Positions 465 to 3,966 of a DNA stretch of 6,475 nucleotides are shown here, in pieces. The stretch spans positions 1-6,475 of the forward strand of contig JAJYJL010000492.1 of assembly GCA_021789565.1 (NCBI GenBank), in the 5' to 3' direction. The first letter of the stretch is position 1. Each line of letters opens with the position of its first letter. The notes beneath the pieces were generated by a model that saw only the letters and a program-made list of their open reading frames with translations, was not told the origin of the DNA and searched no databases. The position numbers and the translations under genes are program-made. Source of the DNA: Acidobacteriota bacterium (GTDB lineage Bacteria; Acidobacteriota; Terriglobia; UBA7540).

Positions 465-1487
465 CTACAGCGGCAGGGTGACGGGCCGGTGCTCGCGAAT
501 GGAAATCTCCGAGGCGTAGCAAATCTCATGGGTGAGCGCGGCATCGTCAAGGTTGGCGTGGGACTCGCGGTCTTCCAGAATGCAGTCGATGAAATGGCTG
601 ACCTCCTGGGGAAAGGGATGGTGGGCTACGTCGCCGCTGTCGGGGAGCACGGTGGGAATGGCTGCCCAGTTTTTCTGGCCGGGCCACTTTTTGGTGAAGA
701 CCTCGTTGTTGCGGATGGCTCCCTGGTCACCCAGTAACTGGATGCGGAAAACATAGGGCATGATGGATTCGACAGAGGAAGCCACTTTGCCGATGGTGCC
801 GTCTTCAAAGCGCACCAGAGTGATGCTGTTGGGCTCGTACTCGTAGTGCAGGAGATTATCGGGGCTTGTGTTGGCGTAGGAAAAAACCTCAATGGCCTTT
901 TTGCCCACAAACCAGCGCAGCCCGTCGGCGGCGTGGCATCCACCGGTCAGCAGACTGCTGCCTGCCATATCCTTCTTGATGTTCCAGTAGTATTGGGCAT
1001 ACCAAGGACCGACACCGTGCAGATAGTCGACTTCAGCCGCAAAAAGCTTACCAATGAATCCGCCAGCCAGCATCGCGCGGATGGTCTCAAAGAGCGGATT
1101 CCATCGGAGCACAAAGCTGACCACGGTCTTGACCTTGGCGGCATGAACGGCAGCCTGAAGTTCGCGTAGCCCTTCCAGGTTGAGTGCCACCGGTTTTTCA
1201 ATCACCATATGCTTGCCGGCTTGGGCCGCGGCGACGCCCTGCGGGACGTGCAGATGGTGGGGAGTGGCCAGCACAACGATCTGGATGCCGGGATCATCAA
1301 GCATTTTTTCCAGGTGTTCGTAGGCGCGTGCGCGCTGCAGCTTAAATACTTCCGCTTTGGCATGGGCACGGTCTTTTTCCCGGCTGACGATGGCGCGGAC
1401 CTCGGTGCGAGGATCGGCCTCGAATGCACGGATGTATTCGCCTGAAACCCATCCCGTTCCCACAATTCCCACACCCAATTTTTCCAT
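465..1487 (-). CDS. Gfo/Idh/MocA-family NAD(P)-dependent oxidoreductase
   Basis: A complete 340-residue cytoplasmic protein, close to the usual family length. The N-terminal Rossmann fold shows the dinucleotide loop GIVGTGWVSG (about 7-16), then the strand VVLATPHHLH (71-80) and the family signature EKP at 97-99, with Lys98 the expected catalytic lysine. The C-terminal alpha/beta domain holds TGGCHAADGLRW (181-192). By position His185 matches the catalytic histidine of inositol dehydrogenase-type members, whereas the catalytic aspartate four residues earlier is Thr181. Members oxidise or reduce sugar, polyol or related hydroxyl groups with NAD(P). The substrate cannot be read from sequence and the neighbours give no hint. 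The ATG at 1485-1487 is chosen because GGGAGG (1494-1499) lies 6 nt upstream. The nearby ATG at 1490-1492 is only 1 nt from that site and in another frame. It is transcribed divergently from the rubrerythrin gene. Confidence 0.88.
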   Translation of the reverse strand: MEKLGVGIVGTGWVSGEYIRAFEADPRTEVRAIVSREKDRAHAKAEVFKLQRARAYEHLEKMLDDPGIQIVVLATPHHLHVPQGVAAAQAGKHMVIEKPVALNLEGLRELQAAVHAAKVKTVVSFVLRWNPLFETIRAMLAGGFIGKLFAAEVDYLHGVGPWYAQYYWNIKKDMAGSSLLTGGCHAADGLRWFVGKKAIEVFSYANTSPDNLLHYEYEPNSITLVRFEDGTIGKVASSVESIMPYVFRIQLLGDQGAIRNNEVFTKKWPGQKNWAAIPTVLPDSGDVAHHPFPQEVSHFIDCILEDRESHANLDDAALTHEICYASEISIREHRPVTLPL

Positions 1488-1680: not shown

Positions 1681-2328
1681 ATGGCCACCGTGGACCTGAA
1701 ATTCAAATCCTTGCCAAAATGGGCTGTTCTGGGGTCGCTGACGGTTGTGATCTTTGCGTCGTTAGCTTGGATGGGCGACGCTCCGGCGCAAAGCCAGACC
1801 GTTTTGAACCTCCAGGCTGCCTACGCCGCCGAGTCCAACGCCTATGTGCGTTATCAGGCTTTTGCGGAGCGCGCCCAGGAGAATGAGTTTGGCGAAGCGG
1901 CAAGCCTGTTCCGGGCCGCCGCGTGCGCAGAGCATGTCCACCTGAAGAACCTTGCCGCCGTGATGCGCAAGATGGGTTTTGAACCGGTGATCAGGATTGA
2001 CAACCCTGTAGTGAAAACGACGGCGGAGAATCTCCGAACATCGGCGGAAGTGGGCGAAGCCTATGAGCGCGACATCCTGTATCCGGAGTTCATCAAGGAA
2101 GCCAAGGCTGCGGGTCATGATGAGGCTGCGCGGGTGTTCCAGTTCGCGATGACGGCTGAAGCCCAGCACGCTAAGTTGTTCAAGACTGCTCTCAGTAACC
2201 TTCACAGGATGGATATGACGAGCCGCGTGTACTACGTCTGCAACGTGTGCGGCTATACGGCGGAAACCGCGGCTAAGCCCTGCCCTGGGTGCGGGGAGCC
2301 TAAGCCCACGTATGAGGAGATGTTCTGA
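1681..2328 (+). CDS. rubrerythrin with N-terminal signal/anchor segment
   Basis: A 215-residue di-iron peroxidase-type protein; rubrerythrins reduce hydrogen peroxide using electrons passed through a rubredoxin-like centre. The four-helix ferritin-like domain (about 42-175) has the full ligand set in the expected order: Glu51, Glu84 and His87 (EHVH), Glu126 and Glu129 (GEAYERD), Glu160 and His163 (EAQH). The C-terminal rubredoxin-like knuckles are CNVC (187-190) and CPGC (201-204), then EPKPTYEEMF. Unlike the classical cytoplasmic protein of about 190 residues, this one starts with a basic stretch and a hydrophobic segment (about 15-30) followed by DAPAQS. This looks like a Sec signal peptide cleaved after Ala36 or Gln37, or an uncleaved anchor, placing the enzyme in the periplasm or on the membrane. 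The ATG is supported by GGAGGG 6 nt upstream. The downstream neighbour is convergent, so it is probably monocistronic. Peroxidase activity is inferred from the family. Confidence 0.93.
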   Translation: MATVDLKFKSLPKWAVLGSLTVVIFASLAWMGDAPAQSQTVLNLQAAYAAESNAYVRYQAFAERAQENEFGEAASLFRAAACAEHVHLKNLAAVMRKMGFEPVIRIDNPVVKTTAENLRTSAEVGEAYERDILYPEFIKEAKAAGHDEAARVFQFAMTAEAQHAKLFKTALSNLHRMDMTSRVYYVCNVCGYTAETAAKPCPGCGEPKPTYEEMF

Positions 2329-2410
2329 CCTGTTGGGGTAACCCTTGCAGAAAGCCGACGCTGCTGATGCGCGCCTTAGCCCTCAGCCAGAAGCACCGGG
2401 GAACACATTT

Positions 2411-2443
2411 ACCCAGGTGCAACCTGATAGGCTGCGCCTGGGT
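2411..2443. terminator. strong hairpin in convergent gap (possible terminator)
   Basis: ACCCAGGTGC (2411-2420) pairs with GCGCCTGGGT (2434-2443), giving a 10-bp stem with one G-T wobble and a 13-nt loop. A shorter outer pairing of GAACACA with TGTGCTC across a TTT bulge may extend it. It lies about 80 nt past the rubrerythrin stop and 130 nt past the stop of the opposing CADD-family gene. No run of T follows on either strand, so intrinsic termination is unproven. It could instead protect a 3' end or belong to a structured RNA. Confidence 0.4.
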
Positions 2444-2467
2444 GTGCTCGATTGAACCGATATCAAC

Positions 2468-2512
2468 AGGGTGGAGGAGTGGCGGTATCTGAGTCGAACA
2501 AATCTCCACCTT
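2468..2512. other. second hairpin in convergent gap
   Basis: AGGGTGGAGG (2468-2477) pairs with TCTCCACCTT (2503-2512). The 7-bp core GGTGGAG/CTCCACC is perfect and is flanked by two wobbles and an A-T. The 25-nt loop contains AGTCGAACA. Together with the hairpin at 2411-2443 this fills most of the gene-free stretch 2329-2569, in which no convincing coding frame was found on either strand. It may be transcript-end structure for the convergent genes or part of a small RNA; no promoter for the latter was identified. Confidence 0.35.
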
Positions 2513-2569
2513 CCTGCCCGCTCCGGTAGCCTTGCCTGAGAGTACGAACCGATGAACCTTCCCGCCGCG

Positions 2570-3250
2570 TCAGCACTCGATGCCGTGACGGCGGCAGACT
2601 GCTGAAAGCATGTCCCATAGCGAATCGAGAACCGTGTCAACCGCATCGGTGACCTTGCGCACGTCTTCCGCACTCAAAGTAGATTCGAGGAGTTCCCTCT
2701 CGACCCGCGAGTGCTCGCGATCTGGTTCAATGTGGACGCGGAAATAGTCGAGAGCGTCCGGCGTGTTGAGGCCGTAGAAGTTCTTAAGACCTTCAATCTT
2801 TGATTCCGCAACTTTGGGAATCTGCGATTCATAGGCATAAAGGGCGGCAATTCCTTGCGCGACGCTTCCGTCGCGGCAGACCCCGCGGAACGTCCGGATC
2901 AGGTTCTCGGTCTCGGCCCAGAGGTCGGCGTTTGAGACCTCCTCGCGGCTGAGGCCGGTTGCTTGCGCAAAACGGAGCCAGAGTTCCGGGTGATTGGGAT
3001 GGCCGGCTTCCTCATCCATCAGGTTGGCCAAAATGTGGCGGCGGACCTGCTGGTCTTAAGTGTGTGCATGCAGCGCCGAGAGGTAGGTGGGGAAAGCAGC
3101 AACGTGGTGATAGTACTGCCGGGCATAGTCACGCATGGCAAGCTGTGGCAGTTCCCCCCGCGTCCACATCTGATAGAAAGGGTGGAGGAGCAGATTACGT
3201 TCTGCGATGCGGGTCTCAATGTGTTCAAGGGTGCTGGCCGTTGTGTTCAC
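2570..3250 (-). pseudogene. CADD-family (self-sacrificing p-aminobenzoate synthase-like) gene with in-frame ochre stop
   Basis: The frame spans 226 residues, the family's normal length, but codon 65 is TAA (3056-3058). The frame is unchanged on either side, so this is a nonsense change, not a frameshift. Known CADD (Chlamydia) makes p-aminobenzoate for folate using its own tyrosine and a di-metal site. By position, with a constant offset of one, all reported metal ligands are kept: Glu80, His87, Glu141, His173, Asp177, His180. So are the residues tied to catalysis: Tyr26, Tyr42, Tyr140, Lys151. The start is GTG (3248-3250), with AAGGAG 7 nt upstream; the longer ATG at 3346 overlaps the promoter -35 and is rejected. 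Translation would stop after 64 residues, before every ligand. A TTG at 3029-3031 could restart it but has no ribosome site and loses Tyr26 and Tyr42. A recent mutation, a sequencing error or read-through are all possible; GAA to TAA is the simplest origin. Confidence 0.82.
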
Positions 3251-3257
3251 TCGGTTT

Positions 3258-3263
3258 CTCCTT
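3258..3263 (-). promoter_or_regulatory. ribosome site fixing the GTG start of the CADD-family gene
   Basis: On the minus strand AAGGAG stands 7 nt before the GTG at 3248-3250, in the context AGAAGGAGAAACCGA. This decides the start in favour of GTG, giving a protein that begins VNTTAST, over the in-frame ATG at 3344-3346, which lies upstream of the likely transcription start. Confidence 0.75.
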
Positions 3264-3317
3264 CTGCTTAAAATTGTTGAGAGATAATTGCCCCGATGCG
3301 TGGTGTCAGGATGCCAG

Positions 3318-3346
3318 ATTATGCACGATCCGCTCGCTTTTCTCAA
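3318..3346 (-). promoter_or_regulatory. sigma-70 promoter of the CADD-family gene
   Basis: On the minus strand TTGAGA (3341-3346, 5 of 6 to the -35 consensus) is followed after exactly 17 nt by CATAAT (3318-3323, 5 of 6 to the -10 consensus). Transcription would begin near 3311, giving a leader of about 60 nt before the GTG start. This is the best-formed promoter in the window and indicates the interrupted gene is still set up to be transcribed. Confidence 0.65.
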
Positions 3347-3403
3347 CTGGATTCCATTTGGCGGGCCGGGCTGACCTTGCTGGAAGCGTTCTGAAATGCG
3401 CCG

Positions 3404-3450
3404 GTGTGAACACAGTTGTCACTTTGACCGCACAGCTGTCACGTGCAATC
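3404..3450. repeat. 20-bp tandem repeats with adjacent palindrome, possible IS end remnant
   Basis: CACAGTTGTCAC (3411-3422) recurs as CACAGCTGTCAC (3431-3442), 11 of 12 identical, at a period of exactly 20 bp. The first copy is abutted by the palindrome GTGT-GA-ACAC (3404-3413), and the second contains the palindrome ACAGCTGT. IS21-family elements are known for ends carrying several short repeats, so this may be a leftover end. Two evenly spaced operator sites on one face of the helix is the alternative. No transposase (istA/istB) fragment is recognisable in the 287-bp gap 3251-3537; apart from the CADD promoter I see nothing else there. Confidence 0.4.
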
Positions 3451-3537
3451 TGCCCTATGATGGATGATGGAGGGAGATTTCAAAAGGACCGGCACGAAGG
3501 GCGGCAAGCAACGGCCTCGACCGGGCTGCAAGTTTGC

Positions 3538-3966
3538 TTAGACTTTCTGGACGACCTGCCTAGACAGCCCGCGGCTCAGATAGACTTTGCCCTCGGCGAC
3601 CTGGTGAACGCCCCGCGCCAGTTCCTCCACGGCGCGGCCCTTAAGAATGTAGCCACGGATCCCAGCCTCCAAAGCCTGCTCAACGTAGTGGTAATCGCGG
3701 TGGACAGTCAGAATAATGGTCCGGGCTCCGGGAAGTGATCTGCGGATTTGGCGGGCGGCTTCGATTCCGTTCAGGTGGGGCATCGATAGATCGAGGAGAA
3801 TGATATCGGGGCGGTGTTTGCAAGCCAGGGAGACAGCCTGTTCTCCGTCGGAAGCCTCGGCGACTACCTTGAACCCTTCCCGTTCGAGGAGCCCCCTCAG
3901 GCTCCGACGAACTGGCGCATTATCGTCGGCTAACATGAGTTGCAATGCCATCAAAGGTTTAGACAC
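3538..3966 (-). CDS. receiver-only response regulator (NarL/FixJ receiver lacking HTH)
   Basis: A 142-residue protein consisting of one CheY-like receiver domain (about 7-125). It has the acidic pair Asp14/Asp15, phospho-acceptor Asp59 (LLDLSMP), the switch residue Thr87 and Lys109 (YILKG). Sequence style (GFKVVAEASDGEQAV, AGIRGYILK) is that of NarL/FixJ regulators and closely follows the full-length regulator at 4309-4941. The tail VYLSRGLSRQVVQKV matches the interdomain linker of such proteins and then hits TAA (3538-3540), about where the LuxR-type helix-turn-helix should begin. No HTH remnant is readable downstream in any frame. It could be a genuine single-domain receiver, acting as a phosphate sink or protein-interaction switch, or a product of deletion. 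The start is GTG (3964-3966) with AGGGGA close upstream (short spacing); an ATG at 3949-3951 is less well supported. Its likely kinase is the one encoded at 4913-6244. Confidence 0.85.
   Translation of the reverse strand: MSKPLMALQLMLADDNAPVRRSLRGLLEREGFKVVAEASDGEQAVSLACKHRPDIILLDLSMPHLNGIEAARQIRRSLPGARTIILTVHRDYHYVEQALEAGIRGYILKGRAVEELARGVHQVAEGKVYLSRGLSRQVVQKV

Follow-up and report, generated by a model that had tools for sequence, protein, structure and literature searches.

CADD (CT610) of Chlamydia trachomatis is a 4-aminobenzoate (pABA) synthase of solved structure (PDB 1RCW, 8VA9). According to excerpts of PMC11965152, the residues consumed in CADD are Tyr27 and Lys152, and Tyr141 and Tyr170 form the pair associated with Mn/Fe. 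The same excerpts describe a protein of this kind from a soil bacterium, NePabS (NE1434) of Nitrosomonas europaea, whose production of pABA has been demonstrated, and the occurrence of Phe or Tyr at the positions of this pair (Tyr140 and Tyr169 in the numbering used below) is linked there to Mn/Fe preference. Among the papers listed in the literature searches, none has a title that concerns an interrupted CADD gene. The window analyzed here (the whole stretch of 6,475 nucleotides from an Acidobacteriota bacterium) carries a CADD-type gene, predicted from its sequence to code for a self-sacrificing pABA synthase-like protein, whose frame is broken by one stop codon. Very probably, an accessory CADD-type gene of an uncultured soil lineage of Acidobacteriota has become a young pseudogene here, through a real nonsense allele that occurs in two or more assembled sequences.

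The coordinates of the features are given in Table 1. The CADD-type frame runs on the minus strand from GTG 3250–3248 to TGA 2572–2570 and its sole interruption is the TAA at 3058–3056 (codon 65). Translation of positions 2567–3346 (minus strand) yields one stop inside the gene, flanked by “...SALHAHT” and “DQQVRRHILANL...”, with no frameshift on either side. The two pieces were searched separately against TIGR04305 (CADD family putative folate metabolism protein; cut-off of 200 bits). The N piece (64 aa) scores 77.6 bits over model positions 3–57 of 212 and the C piece (161 aa) scores 187 bits over positions 60–211 of 212; each is below the cut-off alone and they match adjacent stretches, covering the length of the family model. 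Both the translation and the separate TIGR04305 matches confirm the description, made in a first-pass annotation of this DNA, of a single in-frame ochre stop at codon 65 without frameshift; the gene thus has the family match and, owing to the TAA at codon 65, lacks the uninterrupted frame of a CADD family member. In Pfam the N and C pieces match TENA_THI-4/PQQC and the C piece also matches Haem_oxygenas_2. The frame has no match in the plasmid collection.

Table 1. Features of the window at and around the interrupted CADD-type gene. G440, G441 and G442 are genomes compared at this locus (matching loci L118, L123 and L122, respectively).
Feature	Position	Strand	Basis and remarks
Gfo/Idh/MocA oxidoreductase, left landmark	465..1487	-	profile matches; 89–91% in G440–G442
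Rubrerythrin, also variable at the locus	1681..2328	+	match in L123 (G441); none in L118 (G440) and L122 (G442)
C piece of the CADD-type gene, 161 aa + TGA (2570–2572), with metal-ligand positions and Lys151	2570..3055	-	TIGR04305, 187 bits
Codon 176, Pro, adjoining ligand Asp177	2723..2725	-	120 proteins, 80 loci; Ala in nearly all relatives fetched
TTG, first in-frame ATG/GTG/TTG after the stop, 153-aa ORF	3029..3031	-	ORF list; no close upstream AGGAG-like stretch by eye
In-frame TAA, codon 65	3056..3058	-	translation; faces loop 64–66 of a modeled intact relative
N piece of the CADD-type gene, 64 aa from GTG, with Tyr26 and Tyr42	3059..3250	-	TIGR04305, 77.6 bits; P0121, 98%
Ribosome-site-like AAGGAG ahead of the GTG start	3258..3263	-	also before the G440 start
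Promoter-like TTGAGA-17-CATAAT	3318..3346	-	10/12 consensus match only; same -10 box ahead of the G440 gene
Stand-alone receiver, 142 aa, right landmark, ending in TAA	3538..3966	-	profile matches; locus comparison

Residues were numbered from an alignment of the closest intact relative, P0002 (90% identity over the C piece, among the best 120 of 7351 homologues), with 1RCW of Chlamydia; the two numberings differ by one. Structures 1RCW and 8VA9 are the nearest solved ones of P0002 (E-values of 2e-52 and 4e-52). The window keeps Tyr26, Tyr42, Glu80, His87, Tyr140, Glu141, Lys151, Tyr169, His173, Asp177 and His180. Glu80, His87, Glu141, His173, Asp177 and His180 are the residues that we take to be the metal ligands; with this assignment, the sacrificial Tyr, the Lys and the metal-ligand positions of the family are all present. 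The statement that the ligands and Tyr26, Tyr42, Tyr140 and Lys151 are kept at an offset of one is borne out by the P0002/1RCW alignment, the ligand positions being those presumed above. To call the gene “otherwise intact” was, however, too strong. The residue beside ligand Asp177 is Pro176. Of 120 fetched proteins with the motif, 118 have Ala at this position and one has Thr, and the only Pro is that of P0001, the window's own protein (44 N-terminal fragments that stop short of residue 176 were left out of this count). The 80 genome loci compared (the best 80 of 229) have Ala in 78 cases and Thr in 2. In the model of P0007 (mean pLDDT 95.3), the intact CADD of genome G440, residue 176 lies within helix 164–191, and a proline in this ligand helix may be harmful to the enzyme. 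Pro176, carried by one sequence, is a second suspicious change.

A base-calling or assembly error in an intact gene is unlikely to account for the TAA. The frame is open apart from this codon and intact relatives are common (7351 CADD homologues at E <= 1e-10, of which the best 120 were seen), as an error would have it, but the end point is shared by a protein from a different assembled contig. This is P0121, a 64-residue ENA protein from a 13,602-b contig that represents three member sequences and is the best of the 44 proteins listed in the N-piece protein search. It shows one difference from the window N piece (Ser for Ala in HHVAAF), hence it is not the same sequence, and both end at the same Thr. 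Since P0121 is non-identical, lies on a different contig and terminates at the same residue, an assembly error is disfavored; Pro176 as a second unusual change also speaks against it. It is unlikely that the end of a contig falls exactly at the last residue of P0121. More than one assembled sequence therefore has the truncation, and the stop at codon 65 is probably real and shared, the second case being known as a protein only. Note that the assemblies of P0121 and of the window may derive from one sample, and that the receiver-protein search gave no match on a 13,602-b contig, so that a gene order common to P0121 and the window is unsupported. The C-terminal ORF of the window (P0001) represents a cluster of four members.

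Other candidate interruptions were considered. The TAA in the CADD match of G295 (L082, 1960–1962) lines up with the C terminus of the query and was rejected as a second case, being the gene's own terminator. The 44 short N-terminal proteins were not used as a census of broken CADD genes because their alignments crossed apparent frameshifts, and no count was drawn from them. By eye, the tails of P0123, P0138 and P0139 are unrelated; indels or errors of assembly could be the cause. The CADD relative P0035 (158 aa; longest contig, 198,320 b) begins only at residue 69, and this other lineage may have a broken N-terminal part.

The interruption has no counterpart in the genome relatives compared. 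Among the best 80 loci of 229, codon 65 is a sense codon in every case (Asp 45, Glu 26, others 9), each locus has 62 or more open codons upstream of it, and a stop at or before codon 65 occurs in none. The stop is derived, as none of these relatives carries one there. In alignment A1, 35 relatives have a residue in the stop column, which is Glu in 26 and Asp in the other 9. An alignment around codon 65 with CADD homologues had been proposed as a check, and its outcome agrees with the absence of a stop in the 80 loci.

Inspection of the same locus in relatives, proposed likewise, gives an intact gene in one genome and, in place of further disruption, a missing gene in two others. An intact CADD (P0007) stands at the same place in G440, a genome from the order of the 65%-identical relative G001/L016; its identity to the window is 86% in the N piece and 80% in the C piece. 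The G440 locus reads AraC-type regulator, Gfo/Idh/MocA oxidoreductase, CADD, stand-alone receiver, NarL-type regulator, PAS histidine kinase and SpoIIE-like end. In G441 and G442, whose NarL-type regulators are 94% identical to that of the window, CADD is absent between the locus landmarks: the receiver is found 159 b after the rubrerythrin match in G441 and 339 b after the oxidoreductase in G442. These gaps hold only chance-level matches to CADD remnants (best E of 0.07), and a CADD gene was not found elsewhere in the assembled G441 and G442 with the C piece or TIGR04305. The gene, intact in G440 and not found in G441 and G442, is therefore accessory at this locus, lost from G441/G442 or gained by the others. 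The trio formed by the receiver (3538–3966), a full NarL-type regulator and the PAS histidine kinase is kept in G440, G441 and G442. The rubrerythrin (1681–2328) carries a hydrophobic N-terminal stretch. Some CADD and receiver protein clusters have longest contigs of equal size (71,210, 27,008 and 15,541 b among others), which suggests that the CADD–receiver pairing is usual.

Putative signals for expression of the gene are retained. Two promoter-like sites were found in 2330–3540 versus 0.5 in shuffled sequences, and the claim of an intact good promoter and ribosome site stands as a promoter-like match of 10/12 whose -10 box, together with AAGGAG, recurs upstream of the G440 gene. These retained sites, and a frame that is open on both sides of the TAA, would also suit read-through to a full-length enzyme, to which we give hardly any credit. 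Recoding would be indicated by TAA being unused as a terminator or conserved in frame, but the neighboring receiver gene does end in TAA, as had been stated, and 0 of the 80 relatives (best 80 of 229) has a stop at codon 65. Moreover, the window has no Rfam family match and Pro176 would persist in the read-through product. Of the three options first put forward, a recent nonsense mutation is thus supported, an assembly error is countered by the shared end of P0121, and read-through gained no support.

A split enzyme, active as a pABA synthase assembled from the N fragment and a C fragment with its own start, the cut lying in a loop between helices, is very unlikely. It agrees with the position of the stop, opposite loop 64–66 between helices 36–63 and 67–81 in the P0007 model, with the otherwise good conservation of both pieces, and with each piece representing a protein-database cluster of three or four members. 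However, the first start-type codon, TTG 3031, falls within helix 67–81 and has no close AGGAG-like stretch, Pro176 lies in the ligand helix, and no split is conserved in the 80 loci (best 80 of 229). A natural split enzyme kept in several strains, whose N fragment would be a disposable Tyr carrier and whose separately started C fragment would bring the metal site and the Lys, is more improbable still.

The nonsense allele that we favor appears recent. Over eight outgroups, private protein changes number 5–8 in the window and 6–9 in P0002; as they are similar, the break would be young, in line with the earlier view of a gene that is not long dead. The window departs at 2 of the 94 columns of A1 that are conserved at 95% or more, one of them being residue 176. 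This is not unusual: the 32 rows from P0002 to P0044 have 0–4 departures and 6 more distant rows have 3–7. Pro176 speaks for relaxed constraint elsewhere in the gene; the 2/94 departures and the similar private changes do not. The dN/dS between the window and G440 is 0.15 for the N piece and 0.14 for the C piece, compared to 0.02–0.11 for five neighbors; it is a weak sign, since the value for the receiver gene is as high as 0.18 between G442 and G440. The CADD synonymous divergence between the window and G440 (0.57 and 0.77) is below that of the five neighbors (1.02–1.60), and gene exchange at the locus might be its origin.

In the young pseudogene, the 64-residue N fragment is likely still made from the kept promoter-like and ribosome sites, given that the -10 box and AAGGAG recur upstream of the gene of G440. 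It would have the sacrificial Tyr and lack the metal site. The C fragment would be made poorly or not at all; its probable scarcity follows from the location of TTG 3031 inside helix 67–81, away from any close AGGAG-like stretch. Neither active enzyme nor pABA would be expected from the window copy. We infer loss of activity, a recent origin and tolerance through dispensability in the lineage. Some observations count against a pseudogene: the kept frame, promoter-like and ribosome sites also fit an intact gene with an erroneous base, several other window-specific changes are mild, and the 2/94 departures do not exceed those of the closest relatives. On balance the case looks like ordinary recent gene decay, and nothing found favors read-through or a split enzyme. 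The locus shows a gene for a single-turnover pABA synthase coming and going at one place: one genome has it intact, two relatives yielded no copy, and here it is interrupted.

The dispensability of CADD is seen in these genomes and is not explained by a recognized PabB. Such an enzyme was considered and rejected as the explanation: the CADD-less G441 and G442 show only TrpE, which is the only chorismate-binding (PF00425) match of G440, G441 and G442 alike (TIGR00564 above cut-off). G440 also codes for a second class IV aminotransferase that the models leave unassigned. Among 40 genomes of the order of G440, CADD is above the TIGR04305 cut-off in 5 and DHPS is above cut-off in 35. Exactly one PF00425 match without CADD above cut-off is found in 25, although G420 and G435, two of these, give weak sub-threshold TIGR04305 matches. 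DHPS above cut-off, a single PF00425 match and no CADD above cut-off are combined in 21 of the 40, including G441 and G442, in the assemblies as deposited; this raises the question of where much of the order obtains its pABA. In contig C9 of G004, CADD and the only chorismate-binding enzyme of the genome are about 1.3 kb apart (104177–104803 and 106059–106814).

The CADD of G440 shares with the window gene its position between the Gfo/Idh/MocA oxidoreductase and the receiver. It differs by being uninterrupted, by Ala at residue 176 and by its surroundings, the 19.5 kb fetched being free of rubrerythrin matches. Compared to Chlamydia CADD, the window has Tyr26, Lys151, Tyr140 and Tyr169 as counterparts of Tyr27, Lys152, Tyr141 and Tyr170 (residues as named in excerpts of PMC11965152); it differs by its break at codon 65 and by residue 176, which is Pro against Ala in the Chlamydia protein. 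The host of the window gene is environmental and the role of the Chlamydia protein in host-cell death is not implied for it. NePabS, following the same excerpts, has Phe in place of the two tyrosines, Tyr140 and Tyr169, that the window has in common with CADD (window positions being those of the alignment to 1RCW). Unlike the window gene, NePabS is uninterrupted.
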